Shown in pieces: positions 4,484 through 11,443 of a stretch of 33,672 bases of DNA. The DNA is taken from the NCBI GenBank assembly GCA_012839865.1, contig DUMO01000007.1, forward strand, positions 1-33,672. Direction: 5' to 3'. Under the pieces are notes generated by a model. It was not told where the DNA came from. It saw nothing but the letters and a program-made list of their open reading frames with translations, and searched no databases. The DNA comes from Clostridiaceae bacterium. GTDB taxonomy: Bacteria; Bacillota; Clostridia; CAYPLH01; DUMO01. The position numbers and the translations under genes were made by a program. The stretch's first letter is position 1, and each line of letters opens with the position of its first letter.

Positions 4484-4524
4484 ATTTATTGAAATTGTGG
4501 TTAAAGTTGTTTTATGAGGCGTTT

Positions 4525-5634
4525 ATGAGGATATTATATTTGACCGTATCTGTAGGCGGAGGACACTTAAAGGCTGCAGAAGCCATAAAGGGATGTTTTG
4601 AGACCAAATATCCCGGCTCACAACATATGATAATTGATGCTTTAAAGTATGTTAATCCTGTACTTGACAAGATTGTTGTGGGCAGCTATTTGAGCACAAT
4701 TAAAACTACGCCGCAACTTTATAGAATTCTGTACAAGCGTTCAGAGACAGGTGACAATATTTATGACTTCAGCAGTAAAGTAAGTCAGTTATTGTCTTTT
4801 AAAATGATGGATTTGATTGAAGATTTCAAGCCAGATGCCATCATATGCACCCACCCGTTCTCCCTCCAGTTTATGTCACGCTTCAAAACAAAAAAAGGAA
4901 TGACCATTCCAATTATAGCCACATTAACGGATTTCAACGTACATTCCTTCTGGCTGTACGATTTTATTGATGCATATGTAGTTGCTCACGAATACATGAA
5001 GTATGATATGGTTAAAAGGGGAATTCCTGAGGGAAAAATTTTCCCGTACGGGATACCGGTATCTGATAAGTTTCTTGAAAAGAAGGAACGAAGCAAGCTT
5101 ATTGAGGAATTCAATCTGGAGGACAGGAAATATACCGCTCTTGTAATGGGGGGCAGCCTGGGTTTCGGGAAAATGATCGATTCAATCCGTTCCCTCGCAG
5201 AGAGTGACCTGGATCATCAGATAATAGTGATAACAGGGAAAAACAACCGGAAGGAAAATGAATTAAAACAGCTTGCCTCTGAAATGGGAAAACCCATAAA
5301 AATTATAAGCTATACCGATAGAGTGGCCGATTACATGGAGGTTTCCGATTTTATCATTACAAAACCCGGGGGAATGACTCTGGCGGAATCTCTGGTCAAA
5401 GTCCTTCCCATATTTATCGTTTCACCGATTCCTGGCCATGAGGAAGACAATGCCCAGTTCCTGCTCAACATGGGTTGTGCGGTGAGGATATGGAAATACA
5501 CGGATATGGATATCATAATCAAGGAAACTATTGAAAACCCCCTCAGACTGAATCAAATGAAGGAAATGGCGAAATTTCTTGCAAGACCCTATGCCGCTGA
5601 AAACACAGTGACTCTGGTGGAAAATCTCATTTAA
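4525..5634 (+). CDS. MGDG synthase/UgtP-type glycosyltransferase
   Basis: The start at 4525 (MRILYLTVSVGGGHLKAAEA) is preferred over a TTG 36 bp upstream because TGAGG precedes it and the family begins at this GGGH motif. The 369-residue protein has an N-terminal MGDG-synthase domain (GGGH near residue 10) and a C-terminal GT28 domain with MGGSLGFGKM, KPGGMTLAES and PIPGHEEDNA, the nucleotide-sugar binding set. Relatives transfer glucose or galactose from UDP-sugar to diacylglycerol at the inner face of the membrane, making glycolipid and lipoteichoic-acid anchors (family knowledge). The exact sugar is not predictable. The gene is monocistronic and converges on acpS. Confidence 0.85.
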   Translation: MRILYLTVSVGGGHLKAAEAIKGCFETKYPGSQHMIIDALKYVNPVLDKIVVGSYLSTIKTTPQLYRILYKRSETGDNIYDFSSKVSQLLSFKMMDLIEDFKPDAIICTHPFSLQFMSRFKTKKGMTIPIIATLTDFNVHSFWLYDFIDAYVVAHEYMKYDMVKRGIPEGKIFPYGIPVSDKFLEKKERSKLIEEFNLEDRKYTALVMGGSLGFGKMIDSIRSLAESDLDHQIIVITGKNNRKENELKQLASEMGKPIKIISYTDRVADYMEVSDFIITKPGGMTLAESLVKVLPIFIVSPIPGHEEDNAQFLLNMGCAVRIWKYTDMDIIIKETIENPLRLNQMKEMAKFLARPYAAENTVTLVENLI

Positions 5635-6118: not shown

Positions 6119-7465
6119 TTAAAATTCTTTCAGGGTATCATCAATAATGCAATATGTTGTGGCAAGTATCTCATTCTTTAATTCTATGGCCAGGTCCTTT
6201 ATCTGTATTCTTACATTAGGGTACCCCCTGCTTTTTATGCATACCTCGCCTTCGCCTTTTGCCTTGAGGTACTTGTTTAATTGATTGCTTTTTTCCAACA
6301 ATTCGTGCAATTGCCGGTTAAGGTTCAAAATATCTTTTGGCTTCATGAAATCTGAGTTTGCAAGAGTTTTGCGCAACGAACGTATTTCCGCATCCAGATT
6401 TTCAAGCTCCGACAAAAGGGCTGCACGGCTGAATCCTTTTATAATGACAACCGTTCGTCTTTCGGTAGGCGAGCCTATTATGGGCGAAACAACTCTTATT
6501 TCCGCATTAACCTGCCCCCCTATAATCTGACCTGCCGGGGAGTCGATTATTACCTGCTTTGCAGTTATTGTGCTGTTTATGGCATATAAGCCGATATGCA
6601 CGTCCCCTTCGGAGATAATTGTTGCATCGGATACATATTTTGTATATACATCCTTTTTAGCCTTTATTACAGCCTGATTCTTGCCGGCAATGCCCCCCCT
6701 TATGTATATGCTTCCCTCATTGCTTGCTATTTCCTTTACCTGGCCAATACCGTAGGGACCCAATATTTCTATGTCTTTGCCGGCTATTACCGAAAAATTG
6801 TCTTCAACCGAACCTTTGATGGTTACGTAGCCATCAAATTTAATATTGCCAAACTTGAAACCCACATTGCCGCCTATCTCAAGATGGTTGGACACACCCA
6901 ACATATTGTCGTGGAAGTGCACCGCCCCGTCAATTGCGGCATACAAATGGGTAACCCCGTCCTTATATTCTTCAACAACGGTTTTTTTGTCATACTCAAG
7001 TGGAATTTTCCTTCCGTCCCTGGCAGGAATTTTTTTGCCTCTTACTGAAGTTCCCGGAATTCCTGAAGTAGGTTCTGTTCTCGTGGCAAGCCATTCACCC
7101 TTTTTTACCATGTTTATAAGGCTCAACTCATATTGGTCAACATTGCCGTCCTTCTTCAGCTCAGGCTTTACCTTCTTTAGTTGATACAAATCAACCTTTG
7201 AATCTTCCCCGTCAACAGGTGCAACTCCCTGGGCTGCTATGAATTTTTGATTTACAGTCAGCCTGTTGGCCAGGTCCCGATAGACACCAAAAACAACACC
7301 TTTGTCAAAAAGAGCCTGAAGTACAAGTTTTAAAAACTTGGACCTGTCGTTTTCAAGTTCAGACTCGGTTGCTGTTATGGTGACAAAAGCAGTAAGCTCG
7401 TCCTCTGATATCTCAACTGTAATATTGTCTTTTAACCGGTTTTGAATTAACGGCTCATTTTGCAT
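6119..7465 (-). CDS. FapA/DUF342 family protein
   Basis: The 448-residue protein carries the DUF342 (FapA) pattern. An N-terminal region of about 150 residues ends in RTEPTSGIPGTSVRGKKIPA. It is followed by a repetitive beta-helix of short GDV/GNV/GSV strands (IEIGGNVGFKFGNIKFDG, GSVEDNFSVIAGKDIEILG) and a C-terminal coiled segment (about 345-400, LENLDAEIRSLRKTL). No membrane segment is seen. FapA proteins have been linked to flagellar assembly and cell-surface processes; several clostridia carry them away from flagellar genes, as here, so the role is open. AGGGGTG precedes the ATG. It lies between a coiled-coil membrane protein and acpS. Confidence 0.85.
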   Translation of the reverse strand: MQNEPLIQNRLKDNITVEISEDELTAFVTITATESELENDRSKFLKLVLQALFDKGVVFGVYRDLANRLTVNQKFIAAQGVAPVDGEDSKVDLYQLKKVKPELKKDGNVDQYELSLINMVKKGEWLATRTEPTSGIPGTSVRGKKIPARDGRKIPLEYDKKTVVEEYKDGVTHLYAAIDGAVHFHDNMLGVSNHLEIGGNVGFKFGNIKFDGYVTIKGSVEDNFSVIAGKDIEILGPYGIGQVKEIASNEGSIYIRGGIAGKNQAVIKAKKDVYTKYVSDATIISEGDVHIGLYAINSTITAKQVIIDSPAGQIIGGQVNAEIRVVSPIIGSPTERRTVVIIKGFSRAALLSELENLDAEIRSLRKTLANSDFMKPKDILNLNRQLHELLEKSNQLNKYLKAKGEGEVCIKSRGYPNVRIQIKDLAIELKNEILATTYCIIDDTLKEF

Positions 7466-7598: not shown

Positions 7599-8393
7599 TC
7601 AAATACGGAGACGATTTTTTTTCCTGCTTTCAAGAACGCTGTCAAGAGCCATGGCTTCGACGATTACATCGTCCAAATGGTTCAGCGTTTCACTGGACTC
7701 AATGTTTGATATGATTTGGTGTTTGAACATCCCGATGCTGCTTTCCATAAAATCTAGTTTGGTTCTTATTTTTTCCAGCTCATTTTTTTCTTCATTGACT
7801 CTTGAAATAATTTTACGGTCGAGTTCAATCATCTGGCTTATATTTTGCGCTACATCAGGGTCATTTATAAAATTAATTTTTCTTGTATTCTCGTTTAATC
7901 GGGTAATAATTTCATCAATTTTTACATGGGCAAGTTCTCTGCTTCGGATGCAAAAGTTGGTAAGCAATTTAATATATGAAACCACCAGGTTCAAAGTCTT
8001 CTCCACAATGTTCTCCTTCAACTCGCTTTGACTTCCGCGGAAAAAGGATTCAAATATTTCATTCCTGTCGTCCATGACTTTTTTCAGCTTTTTATAATAC
8101 ACGGCATTGGTATATTTTTTAGCTGTTGCAAAAAGTTTAAGACAGGTATTGTTCAGCATTTTGATAGTTTTCACCTTTTGCCTGTGCAAAAAGTTGTCTA
8201 CAAAACGCTTATCCAGTGTACTATAAATCACAAAACCTGCATATACCGCAAAACCTGCGGCATATAAGGCAGGACCGGGTGCAATTCTATCCGGAGCCAT
8301 GTTTTGAATTAAATAAACAAAAGCTTCCGAAGTAAGCAATACACCTATATTCCTTTTATCCATGAGTGCGCTCGCCAACAATTTAAACTTCAT
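7599..8393 (-). CDS. Membrane-anchored coiled-coil protein next to pspA, function unknown
   Basis: I do not recognise a named family. The 264-residue protein has a hydrophobic N-terminal third, with one clear membrane segment at about 43-62 (GPALYAAGFAVYAGFVIYST) and a weaker one at about 17-33. A long, charged, helix-forming region follows (about 65-260) with coiled-coil-like spacing, for example VNEEKNELEKIRTKLDFMES. GGGAGTAACC precedes the ATG. It begins 34 bp after pspA on the same strand, so the two are probably one operon, and its topology (short anchor, long cytoplasmic helix) would suit a membrane receptor or partner for PspA. That role is inference only. Confidence 0.75.
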   Translation of the reverse strand: MKFKLLASALMDKRNIGVLLTSEAFVYLIQNMAPDRIAPGPALYAAGFAVYAGFVIYSTLDKRFVDNFLHRQKVKTIKMLNNTCLKLFATAKKYTNAVYYKKLKKVMDDRNEIFESFFRGSQSELKENIVEKTLNLVVSYIKLLTNFCIRSRELAHVKIDEIITRLNENTRKINFINDPDVAQNISQMIELDRKIISRVNEEKNELEKIRTKLDFMESSIGMFKHQIISNIESSETLNHLDDVIVEAMALDSVLESRKKNRLRI

Positions 8394-8427
8394 GGTTACT
8401 CCCGAACTTATGTTAATAAAGCATTAA

Positions 8428-9165
8428 TCAGCTTTCCAGATTACTTGCCTTGTTATCGATTTTCTCCTTTACCTCAAAACCCTTATCTCCGCCAAGCATG
8501 GCTTCAGCCCTGGCCAGAGCCCTGTCCCTTGCAGAGTTCATATCGAGACGTTTCAGTTTCATGTCAATGTTATCACTGCTCAAAGATTCCATGGCATTTG
8601 CACGGGCTGTCTTTTTGTTTACGATTTCCCTTGCACGCTCTAAGTCTTCATTAATCCGGCTTATTTGATTTTCATGAGAAGCGAATTTGGAGTTCATCGC
8701 ATTTATATTTTCCTTGAAATTTGCAAGTTTCGCCTGGGATTTCAAGGTTCTTATTTCATTCAGCTTGGCATTCATTTCAGACTCAAAAATTTTGAAATCT
8801 TCACGGATCTTTGCAACTTCTGCCATGGCGGATTCATATGTAGCCTTATGGGCTTCATATGCCGACTGGTATTCTTCCTCTTGCATAAGCAGTTCAACAA
8901 GTTCTTCCTTCTTTCCCTGCTTTGTTGCTGATTCGATTCTGGCACGAATCGAATTTAACTTGTTTTCTGCGGTTTTCAATTCAATTTTTATCATTTCGGC
9001 ATTGGTCTGTACTTCCACAATCTGATTTTCGGCTTTTTTCCTGGCTTTCTCCAGTTGATTTTTTATATCCTCAAAAAGAATATCAGGATTTTTTTCTTCA
9101 AGCCTGCCTATGAACAAACCAAAGAAACCTCTTATTAAAGCGCCTAGTCTACTAAAAAAACCCAT
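8428..9165 (-). CDS. pspA: PspA/IM30 (ESCRT-III superfamily) protein
   Basis: The 245-residue protein starts MGFFSRLGALIRGFFGLFIG, an amphipathic helix like the membrane-binding helix 0 of PspA/Vipp1. It continues as an almost unbroken charged coiled coil (residues 30-210) with IEVQTNAEMIKIEL-type heptads (IVEVQTNAEMIKIELKTAE) and an alanine-rich helix ARDRALARAEAMLGG near the end. PspA proteins polymerise on stressed membranes and are structural homologues of ESCRT-III (family knowledge). A classical PspA is about 220 residues; this one has a short C-terminal extension. AGGAGG precedes the ATG. It follows an AAA+ ATPase gene on the same strand but has its own promoter. Confidence 0.82.
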   Translation of the reverse strand: MGFFSRLGALIRGFFGLFIGRLEEKNPDILFEDIKNQLEKARKKAENQIVEVQTNAEMIKIELKTAENKLNSIRARIESATKQGKKEELVELLMQEEEYQSAYEAHKATYESAMAEVAKIREDFKIFESEMNAKLNEIRTLKSQAKLANFKENINAMNSKFASHENQISRINEDLERAREIVNKKTARANAMESLSSDNIDMKLKRLDMNSARDRALARAEAMLGGDKGFEVKEKIDNKASNLES

Positions 9166-9361
9166 AATTTTTACCTCCTGTTATGTTTTGGAGCATTCGC
9201 TGCCCATAAGACCGTTTAAAATCAGACTTCACATCGGCCTTTTGTGTTATGATAATTGGTTTTTAAATTTCAACCTTTTGCCGCTTGCTTAAGAAAGCCG
9301 GCTAAAAACTGAACAGGTAAATATTTTCAGCAATATGTAAAATCAAGGTTTTTATACTGCT

Positions 9362-9389
9362 ATTATAACACATTGCCACTGCTGTGCAA
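9362..9389 (-). promoter_or_regulatory. Sigma-A-type promoter for the pspA operon
   Basis: Reading leftward, TTGCAC (9389-9384) and TATAAT (9367-9362) are separated by 16 bp. It lies in the 256-bp gap between the AAA+ ATPase stop and pspA, giving a leader of about 190 nt. This means pspA can be expressed apart from the ATPase. Confidence 0.6.
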
Positions 9390-9421
9390 TAAGATTGTTA
9401 ACAGGCTAAAACCCGCTTTTT

Positions 9422-11158
9422 TCATTGTTTTTCCAGACACTCAACATATTTTTCAGGCAGCAGGTCCATATCTTCACACTCTTTTAAAGCCAGCATTGTC
9501 ATTAACTCAACCTGCTGGGTGCTGGGTTTGCACCTGTTAATTGCATCAAATAGCACCCTTTCGGTTAGAACCGGGTTTTCCGGGTTGGCATCACAGGCAA
9601 TTTCATAAGCTTTTCGTACAACAGACTCTATTTCCGCACCGGTATATTTACCGGTAAGTTCGGCAAAGGGCATGAAATCTGTCACGTCTGTCAAAAACCC
9701 ATACTTATTTATTATAACCGAAAAAATCTCTGCCCTTTCCTCCTTTTCAGGAAGCAATATCGGGATTTTTTTATCAAAGCGCCCAGCTCTTTTCAAAGCC
9801 ACATCCAAAAGATCGGGCCTGTTGGTTGCTGCTATGAAAATAATTTTACCTCTATTATTTGTATTACCGGTAAACTGTAAAAATTCACTGAAAATATTCC
9901 TGCTTACACCACTGTCACCGCTTTCGCCCCTTCTGAAGGTCGTATCAATTTCATCCACAAATACTATTACAGGCTGCTGGGATTGTGCCCCCAAAAGGCA
10001 CTTCTTGAAGTTCTTTTCACTTTCGCCTACATATTGTCCCAGAATACGGGACATATCAATTTTGACACAGTTGAATCCGCTGGCTTTGGCAAGAGCATTG
10101 ACCAAAAGAGTTTTGCCGGTTCCTGAAGGTCCGCAGAGCAATATACCCATGGGCACCCGGCGGAGGTCGCCTTTCTTTACCGGTTCAACCACGTTCTTTA
10201 AAAGGTAGTTCTTCACTTTTTCCATTCCGCCAATATTTTCAAAGCCAATCTCAGGATATATGAATTCCAGGACATCTCCATACTCTTTATTAAGAATGGA
10301 TTGCTTTTTTTCCTTGATAAACTCAAAACTTACGGGCACATCTTCTGCCTCCGCCCTCAGGGCTATGTCTTTTATGGCATTCTTGGACAGTCCTGATGAC
10401 AGCTTGGCAAACTCCTGGGGTGTTACTTTGGTTTTCAAGCTGCTTTTTTCAAGCAGATAGCTAATGTATTCAAGGCGCTGATTTTCATCAGGCAGGCCTA
10501 CCAGAAGCGGCTCCACCCGGTAAGAGGATTTTAATATTTCCCTGCTTACACCTGCCAGGTTGTCCGCCATCATTACAATTACGCTTCCCGCTGATGAAAT
10601 CGTACCGTTTACCGACCATTCCGAAAGCCATATGAGGGACATGCGTTCTTCCATGCTCATGCTGCCAATATCCACCGACGGGATTATTTTCTCGATGTGG
10701 TCTATGAAAAACGCCATTTTTGTGTTTTTCAGAGCAGAATCAATAAATGGGAATATTTTGGACGGCGGAGCCATAAATAAATTGGATGCAACATTAGAGG
10801 TTATCTTGTTGAACTCACGCTGCATGCCGGGCTCCAGGAACCTCAATCCCCTTGAGATGTCATAGTATGCTACTATAGAAAAATTCCTCGGTTTTAAAAA
10901 TTCCTCGTATATAAACCGTTCAATGCCCCGGAAATTGTCCACTGAATCCCTTACGTTAAAGTGCAGCAGGAACTCATGGGTCATTCCGGATTTGTATTTG
11001 TTTGCAAAATTATCATACCAAAAACCTTCCGCCACCTGATACAGCTCCTTTTTCCATAAATTTGCGAATGGCCTTAATACTTCTACATTACATTTTTGAA
11101 TGGTTGAAGTCAAGAGCCAATCCAGCAAGTAGGACAGGAGGATGGTACCTTGCCCCAT
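9422..11158 (-). CDS. Vps4/Cdc48-like AAA+ ATPase with degenerate first ATPase domain
   Basis: Residue numbers count from the longest possible start (TTG at 11296). The C-terminal half is a complete classical AAA module: Walker A GPSGTGKT (389-396), pore-loop motif QYVGESE, Walker B VIVFVDEID, sensor-1 ATNRPD, arginine-finger region RAGRFDKK and sensor-2 YTGAEIESV. The N-terminal half (about 135-330) looks like a decayed AAA domain: a Walker B-like MAFFIDHIEKIIP is present but no P-loop. Relatives unfold or disassemble protein polymers. The first 46 codons of the longest frame come from dispersed and tandem repeats, so I use the ATG at 11158 (MGQGTILLSYLLDW); even this lies in a repeat and lacks a good ribosome site. 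The native start may have been lost. Confidence 0.8.
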   Translation of the reverse strand: MGQGTILLSYLLDWLLTSTIQKCNVEVLRPFANLWKKELYQVAEGFWYDNFANKYKSGMTHEFLLHFNVRDSVDNFRGIERFIYEEFLKPRNFSIVAYYDISRGLRFLEPGMQREFNKITSNVASNLFMAPPSKIFPFIDSALKNTKMAFFIDHIEKIIPSVDIGSMSMEERMSLIWLSEWSVNGTISSAGSVIVMMADNLAGVSREILKSSYRVEPLLVGLPDENQRLEYISYLLEKSSLKTKVTPQEFAKLSSGLSKNAIKDIALRAEAEDVPVSFEFIKEKKQSILNKEYGDVLEFIYPEIGFENIGGMEKVKNYLLKNVVEPVKKGDLRRVPMGILLCGPSGTGKTLLVNALAKASGFNCVKIDMSRILGQYVGESEKNFKKCLLGAQSQQPVIVFVDEIDTTFRRGESGDSGVSRNIFSEFLQFTGNTNNRGKIIFIAATNRPDLLDVALKRAGRFDKKIPILLPEKEERAEIFSVIINKYGFLTDVTDFMPFAELTGKYTGAEIESVVRKAYEIACDANPENPVLTERVLFDAINRCKPSTQQVELMTMLALKECEDMDLLPEKYVECLEKQ

Positions 11159-11211
11159 TTTCCGGCAGCGTGTCAATTCCCTTGCCCCATTTTCGGGCAG
11201 TGTGTCAATTC
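11148..11211. repeat. Two tandem 32-bp units at the 5' end of the ATPase gene
   Basis: Two directly adjacent 32-bp units (11148-11179 and 11180-11211) share CCTTGCCCCATTTTC, GGCAG and GTGTCAATTC and differ at two positions. A third, broken start (CCTTGAACAAC) follows. The period is not a multiple of three, so the units are read in different frames in the extended ATPase frame, which argues that this part is not native coding sequence. Confidence 0.8.
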
Positions 11212-11219
11212 CCTTGAAC

Positions 11220-11277
11220 AACTTACCATGAATGAAATGAATGCAGAACATAACAAGGCTTTTATTTTGAGAAAACC
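11220..11277 (-). repeat. Dispersed repeat family 2, copy A (reverse)
   Basis: Reading leftward, the copy contains GGTTTTCTCAAAATAAAAGC, TTGTTATGTTCTGCATTCAT and TTCATTCATGGTAAGTT. Near-identical words occur at 11388-11443 and 14449-14528. Together with copy B it forms an inverted pair around a 110-bp centre, like the ends of a miniature element. It supplies the start and the FCIHFIHG peptide of the over-extended ATPase frame. Confidence 0.8.
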
Positions 11278-11368
11278 GACGGTTCGCTGAAGTCAAAAAT
11301 GCTACCGCTTTTTACTCGCCCTCCGTGGCTCGAAAAAGCTAAAAAAACATCCTGTTTTTTTCACGCAT
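11278..11368. other. Centre between inverted repeat copies A and B
   Basis: The stretch has no open frame. It includes TCGAAAAAGCTAAAAAAACA followed by TCCTGTTTTTTTCACG, an A-run/T-run pair that can form a weak hairpin, and a CTCGCCCTCCGTGGCTCG palindrome-like segment (11319-11336). I see no gene. Confidence 0.4.
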
Positions 11369-11443
11369 TTTTGCCTTCAACTCACCTGGTTTTCTAACAA
11401 AATAAAGCCATTTGTTATTGTTCTGTATTCATTTCATTCATGG
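11369..11443 (+). repeat. Dispersed repeat family 2, copy B
   Basis: The copy runs TTTTGCCTTCAACTCACCT, GGTTTTCTAACAAAATAAAG, then TTGTTATTGTTCTGTATTCA and TTTCATTCATGG. It is the mirror partner of copy A and matches copy C at 14449-14513 over its full length. The reading frame that runs from here into the metal-binding protein (start near 11412) is an artefact of the repeat. Confidence 0.8.

Follow-up and report, generated by a model that had tools for sequence, protein, structure and literature searches.

The systems closest to the locus described here are the ESCRT-III/Vps4 pairs of eukaryotes and archaea (CdvB/CdvC in the latter), the canonical phage shock protein (PSP) systems (PspF-PspABC, LiaFSR-LiaH) and the Cdc48/VAT (p97) unfoldases. 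According to a 2024 survey, complete ESCRT systems are confined to archaea and eukaryotes (PMC10936438), and whether any ATPase fills the role of Vps4 for PspA or Vipp1 has been described as an open question (PMC8281802). In its main text, the study of Ravi et al. 2024 (PMC11237479) describes a bacterial PspA encoded next to a double-AAA protein whose N-terminal copy is inactive (example AEY64321.1), and proposes ATP-dependent remodelling like that of Snf7 by Vps4. We analyzed such a locus in a Clostridiaceae bacterium with a genome of 2.74 Mb in 89 contigs. The stretch of DNA analyzed, hereafter the window, spans 33,672 nucleotides (contig G000:C26). Three consecutive open reading frames on its minus strand encode an AAA ATPase, PspA and a 264-residue protein, in agreement with the three leftward neighbors of a preliminary description made from the sequence alone. 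All features of these three genes are given on the minus strand.

The locus resembles ESCRT-III/Vps4 in pairing a polymer protein of the ESCRT-III superfamily with an adjacently encoded classical AAA motor, and in the short conserved C-terminal motif of the polymer protein, which is analogous to the MIT-interacting motif (MIM). It differs in its motor, which has two AAA domains, neither MIT nor Vps4_C, and a higher CDC48 score. With the canonical PSP systems it shares a PspA/IM30 family protein, but this PspA is divergent (37.7 bits, compared with 87-185 bits in canonical members of the class), has another C-terminus and is accompanied by a dedicated AAA ATPase. The tandem AAA domains, with an active domain closest to VCP-like ATPases, recall Cdc48/VAT, from which the protein differs in its inactive first AAA domain and in lacking a Cdc48 N-domain recognizable by Pfam. 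The pair of Ravi et al. is the same gene pair with the same architecture, including the inactive first AAA domain; the main-text sections consulted contain no mention of the tail motif or the 264-residue protein reported here.

The ATPase-PspA association and its ESCRT-like reading are hence already published (PMC11237479). What is new here is the ATPase-linked tail motif of PspA, which provides additional, sequence-level support for a direct link between the two proteins. We consider it likely, with a probability of roughly 0.7, that the ATPase acts directly on PspA, in a motor-driven PspA turnover involving a membrane partner. The preliminary description had proposed an ESCRT-III/Vps4-like module in which the ATPase remodels PspA. 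Conserved synteny and the tail speak for this idea, while its Vps4 label fits less well, the motor being Cdc48/VAT-like, and the idea itself was already in print.

PspA and its C-terminal tail

The pspA gene (8428-9165) encodes a protein of 245 residues that matches PF04012 (PspA_IM30) at 37.7 bits over residues 3-222, a modest pass of the 33.9-bit cut-off. The match places it in the ESCRT-III superfamily, and its amphipathic N-terminal helix (9106-9165), which is alpha0-like and has a hydrophobic moment of 0.57, is conserved. Across 291 genomes of the class, PspAs form two sets, a canonical one scoring 87-185 bits and a divergent one scoring 30-47 bits; matches of about 19-22 bits, mostly to much longer proteins, were excluded from these counts. 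The low-scoring PspA is found in precisely the 18 ATPase-bearing genomes, and none of them has a canonical one. The PspA of the window belongs to this divergent, ATPase-linked subfamily. No pspB, pspC or pspF was seen in the neighborhood of pspA, though PspF was not specifically searched for. The earlier statement that the usual partners are absent here holds for PspC at the locus; the genome encodes a PspC-domain protein elsewhere (G000:C81).

Beyond the last PspA core helix, after a variable linker, the PspA of the window carries the heptapeptide GFEVKEK (8461-8481), a candidate recognition peptide for the ATPase. The motif GFEV(K/R)E(K/R) is found near the C-terminus in 41 of 41 full-length ATPase-linked PspAs (40 from a scan of public genomes and the window's own). 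It occurs in none of the 30 PspAs without an ATPase gene found beside them, namely 23 canonical proteins of the class and seven others (five in G622, and those of G360 and G729); most of these unlinked PspAs have a charged C-terminal helix, such as DELxxLKxxLG, instead. The codons of the tail differ between genomes (GGC/GGA/GGT/GGG, GTA/GTT/GTC/GTG and others), yet the residues remain constant, which indicates that selection acts on the tail at the protein level. In another class of the same phylum, three genomes with adjacent ATPase and PspA genes have GRVVKE(K/R) at the aligned place. In one relative (L100), the motif stands three times in tandem in degenerate form, GFEVKEKNGNFEVKEKNEALEVKERNENK, which can be read as the kind of expansion typical of short binding motifs.

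The distribution of the tail also bears on an alternative in which the 264-residue protein is the real regulator of PspA and is bound by the PspA tail, the ATPase working on the 264-residue protein or elsewhere. The 264-residue gene does adjoin pspA in the same cluster, and in two genomes (G360, G729) distant relatives of it lie beside or near a PspA gene where the ATPase was not found. However, the ATPase-free PspAs of these two genomes lack the tail. Conversely, three genomes (G627, G794, G795) have ATPase, PspA and tail, and no relative of the 264-residue protein was found beside them. The tail thus goes with the ATPase rather than with the 264-residue protein, and we regard this alternative as very improbable. 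The pattern suggests that the tail marks where the motor grips PspA, in a contact that would resemble the one between Vps4 and MIMs and have a separate evolutionary origin. To our knowledge, the tail is unlike any known MIM. It could also serve as a sequence tag with which to locate motor-coupled PspAs elsewhere.

Synteny and distribution

The scan of public genomes recovered 45 relatives of the ATPase, together with one unrelated AAA protein. Relatives occur, among other groups, in Acetivibrio, Ruminiclostridium, Pseudobacteroides, Herbivorax and Anaerobacterium, and the carriers of the module are a group of cellulose-degrading bacteria. The published example, AEY64321.1, presumably comes from a Clostridium of the Ruminiclostridium group. 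A text search of the literature for a study of PspA in C. thermocellum gave no match.

The preliminary description had made its proposal depend on three-gene synteny and co-occurrence, and the neighborhood is strongly conserved. Of the 43 named relatives with a long enough contig, 41 show the order ATPase, PspA, 264-residue protein, with a GNAT gene sometimes inserted before the last of these. On these 41 contigs, the ATPase gene adjoins that of its candidate ESCRT-III-type substrate, PspA. The two exceptions are fragmented metagenome-assembled genomes (L104, L108), apparently identical to G002 and G056, whose pspA and 264-residue genes sit on other contigs. Within the class, the ATPase gene and the 264-residue gene are found in an identical set of genomes (18 of 291). 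In the other class, ATPase-PspA pairs recur amid different neighboring genes. Nor was the ATPase assigned to an unrelated function, the other outcome named beforehand as contrary to the proposal.

Such conservation might also arise if the genes merely shared a slowly rearranging region and formed no functional unit, and the flanking genes ispE, gntR, fapA and acpS are indeed frequently kept too. We give this explanation very little credence. The flanks vary and the GNAT gene inserts, yet the ATPase, PspA and 264-residue genes remain together; the pairs of the other class have different neighbors; the ATPase gene and the 264-residue gene are absent together; and the tail accompanies the ATPase.

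The ATPase and its proposed action on PspA

The ATPase gene (9422-11035) encodes a protein of 537 residues. This length is based on a GTG start at 11035, since all orthologues begin, in the alignment, at a W(Y/F)xxF segment corresponding to this codon and a ribosome-binding site, AAGGAG, lies at 11045-11050. The start previously placed at 11158 is almost certainly 41 codons too far upstream.

Pfam recognizes only the second half of the protein, which matches PF00004 at 2.5e-37. This active AAA domain (9425-10246) contains Walker A (GPSGTGKT, 10109-10132), the pore loop QYVGESE (10016-10036) and Walker B (VIVFVDEID, 9944-9970), which, like sensor 1, are unchanged in 22 of 22 aligned relatives; it had rightly been called complete, YVGESE included. 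The first half (10238-11020) has no family match in Pfam, and alignment of the two AAA domains with each other by hhalign gave a probability of 11.5 percent. Despite this value, its identity as an AAA domain is settled by a profile search against the PDB and by fold comparison: the profile of 41 relatives matched AAA chains at 3e-5, and an AlphaFold model (pLDDT, the predicted local distance difference test, of 84.6) led to AAA ATPases with an E-value of about 1e-9 and a probability of 1.00. None of the 41 sequences retains a Walker A motif, and 40 of them have histidine in place of the Walker B glutamate (DE to DH; FIDH in the window). The domain also has no arginine finger and is missing the residues needed to hydrolyze ATP. 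Its decay had rightly been noted from the outset.

The motor had been termed Vps4/Cdc48-type, of which the Cdc48/VAT-like half is upheld. In NCBIfam, the active domain scores 164 bits against CDC48, 153 against the proteasome-activating nucleotidase, 133 against CdvC (the archaeal Vps4) and 129 against FtsH, and the top chains in the PDB search are VCP-like ATPases. By profile score, the domain is therefore nearer to Cdc48 than to Vps4. A Pfam scan found neither MIT (PF04212), whose place is taken by the degenerate first AAA domain, nor the C-terminal oligomerization domain Vps4_C (PF09336), and recognized no Cdc48 N-domain. By membership the ATPase is not a Vps4, though its function may well be Vps4-like. 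An anti-phage role was considered and set aside, as the IetA models matched through the general AAA domain alone and no partner gene is present.

The same profile scores favor a further alternative, in which the ATPase, in the manner of Cdc48 or FtsH, extracts membrane proteins in general or unfolds them for quality control, PspA is a stress-induced scaffold that draws it to damaged membrane, and the tail is a recruitment signal rather than a pulling site. The active domain fits CDC48 and the proteasome-activating nucleotidase better than CdvC, VCP-like ATPases lead the PDB matches, and some ATPase relatives have no PspA. Against this, the conserved neighbors are PspA and the 264-residue gene, and not a protease, a ubiquitin-like adaptor or another substrate gene. 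We judge this alternative unlikely.

Under direct ATPase action on PspA, PspA would polymerize on the inner membrane face, and the ATPase would form a hexamer whose inactive first ring serves as a docking platform and which holds the PspA tail, GFEVKEK. The active second ring would then thread and unfold PspA subunits, leading to disassembly or turnover of the polymer, as Vps4 does with ESCRT-III. The 264-residue hairpin protein would keep PspA, alone or assembled with the ATPase, at selected places on the membrane. In its fullest form, this would be a bacterial ESCRT-III disassembly machine composed of a Cdc48-like double-ring unfoldase, a short C-terminal motif by which it recognizes PspA and whose origin is separate from that of the MIM, and a hairpin protein that sets the site, a combination for which we put the odds slightly above even. 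If true, it would be the missing bacterial counterpart of Vps4. With its few proteins and a tail of seven residues, the module makes the question of a PspA ATPase directly testable, and it is present in isolates such as Acetivibrio and Ruminiclostridium.

Several observations weigh against the proposed action on PspA. In other classes, one ATPase relative occurs in a genome without any PspA (G347) and another adjoins a DUF3150 protein (G622), so that the double-AAA ATPase family is not bound to PspA everywhere; these loci lie at L167:7401-9203 and L166:6589-9685, respectively. A Cdc48-like motor could have a different substrate. In addition, the linkage of tail and ATPase represents about two independent lineages and not 44 independent events. 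Finally, a gap of 256 nucleotides separates pspA from the ATPase gene in the window, which makes their co-transcription uncertain.

The 264-residue protein and the surrounding locus

The 264-residue protein (7599-8393) has no match in Pfam and further family libraries and none to a solved fold by Foldseek, in keeping with its first listing as unrecognized. It had been thought to combine one membrane segment with one long helix. Its AlphaFold model (pLDDT 89.1) instead predicts a membrane hairpin of two hydrophobic helices, at residues 13-32 and 40-60 (8214-8357), followed by a domain of several helices, and two strongly hydrophobic peaks are seen in 32 of 38 members of the family. Homology to PspA/Snf7 was examined and rejected: two profile comparisons were negative (hhalign gave 0.1 percent against the PspA alignment), and ESCRT-III is absent among the 50 Foldseek matches listed. 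The top Foldseek matches, which were not counted as evidence, are designed helical bundles and BAR domains with E-values of at least 0.015, and a weak PDB match to DnaI (6e-4) was discarded as a likely chance match between helices. By its distribution, the family accompanies PspA independently, which would fit a role in membrane siting. The topology predicted for the protein and the recurrent placement of its gene next to pspA point to a possible membrane receptor.

Members of the family are also found in other settings. Paralogues in two genomes (L060:9001-11451, L061:5484-7928) adjoin an NMT1-type substrate-binding protein fused to OmpA, and one in a single genome (L062:10424-13154) adjoins M50 and M23 peptidases. 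In G360, a distant genome, the relative overlaps the end of pspA, with ABC-transporter and FtsX-permease genes adjacent and without the ATPase (L168:6456-9765). The main text of PMC11237479 describes PBPB-OmpA operons with 'Snf7 homologs with a TM segment', a phrase that may refer to the 264-residue family.

The pspA gene had been credited with its own promoter, a claim we do not retain, as a consensus scan found sites no more numerous than in shuffled sequences; an unproven extended -10-like element, TGTTATAAT, was noted by eye upstream of pspA (9362-9370, minus strand). Just upstream of the ATPase gene lies an element of about 213 bp resembling a miniature inverted-repeat transposable element (11229-11441), with imperfect terminal inverted repeats of about 74 bp and about 40 copies genome-wide. 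Between it and the ATPase start is a tandem duplication of about 32 bp (11140-11218), which reads GGAATTGACAC(A/G)CTGCC(C/G)GAAAATGGGGCAAG on the minus strand. A FapA (DUF342) gene (6119-7465) comes after the 264-residue gene in the window and in many relatives. A gene resembling those for monogalactosyldiacylglycerol (MGDG) synthase and processive diacylglycerol glucosyltransferase (4489-5634, plus strand) places a membrane-lipid enzyme near the PspA module, and in relatives it is often found at the distal end of this cluster.

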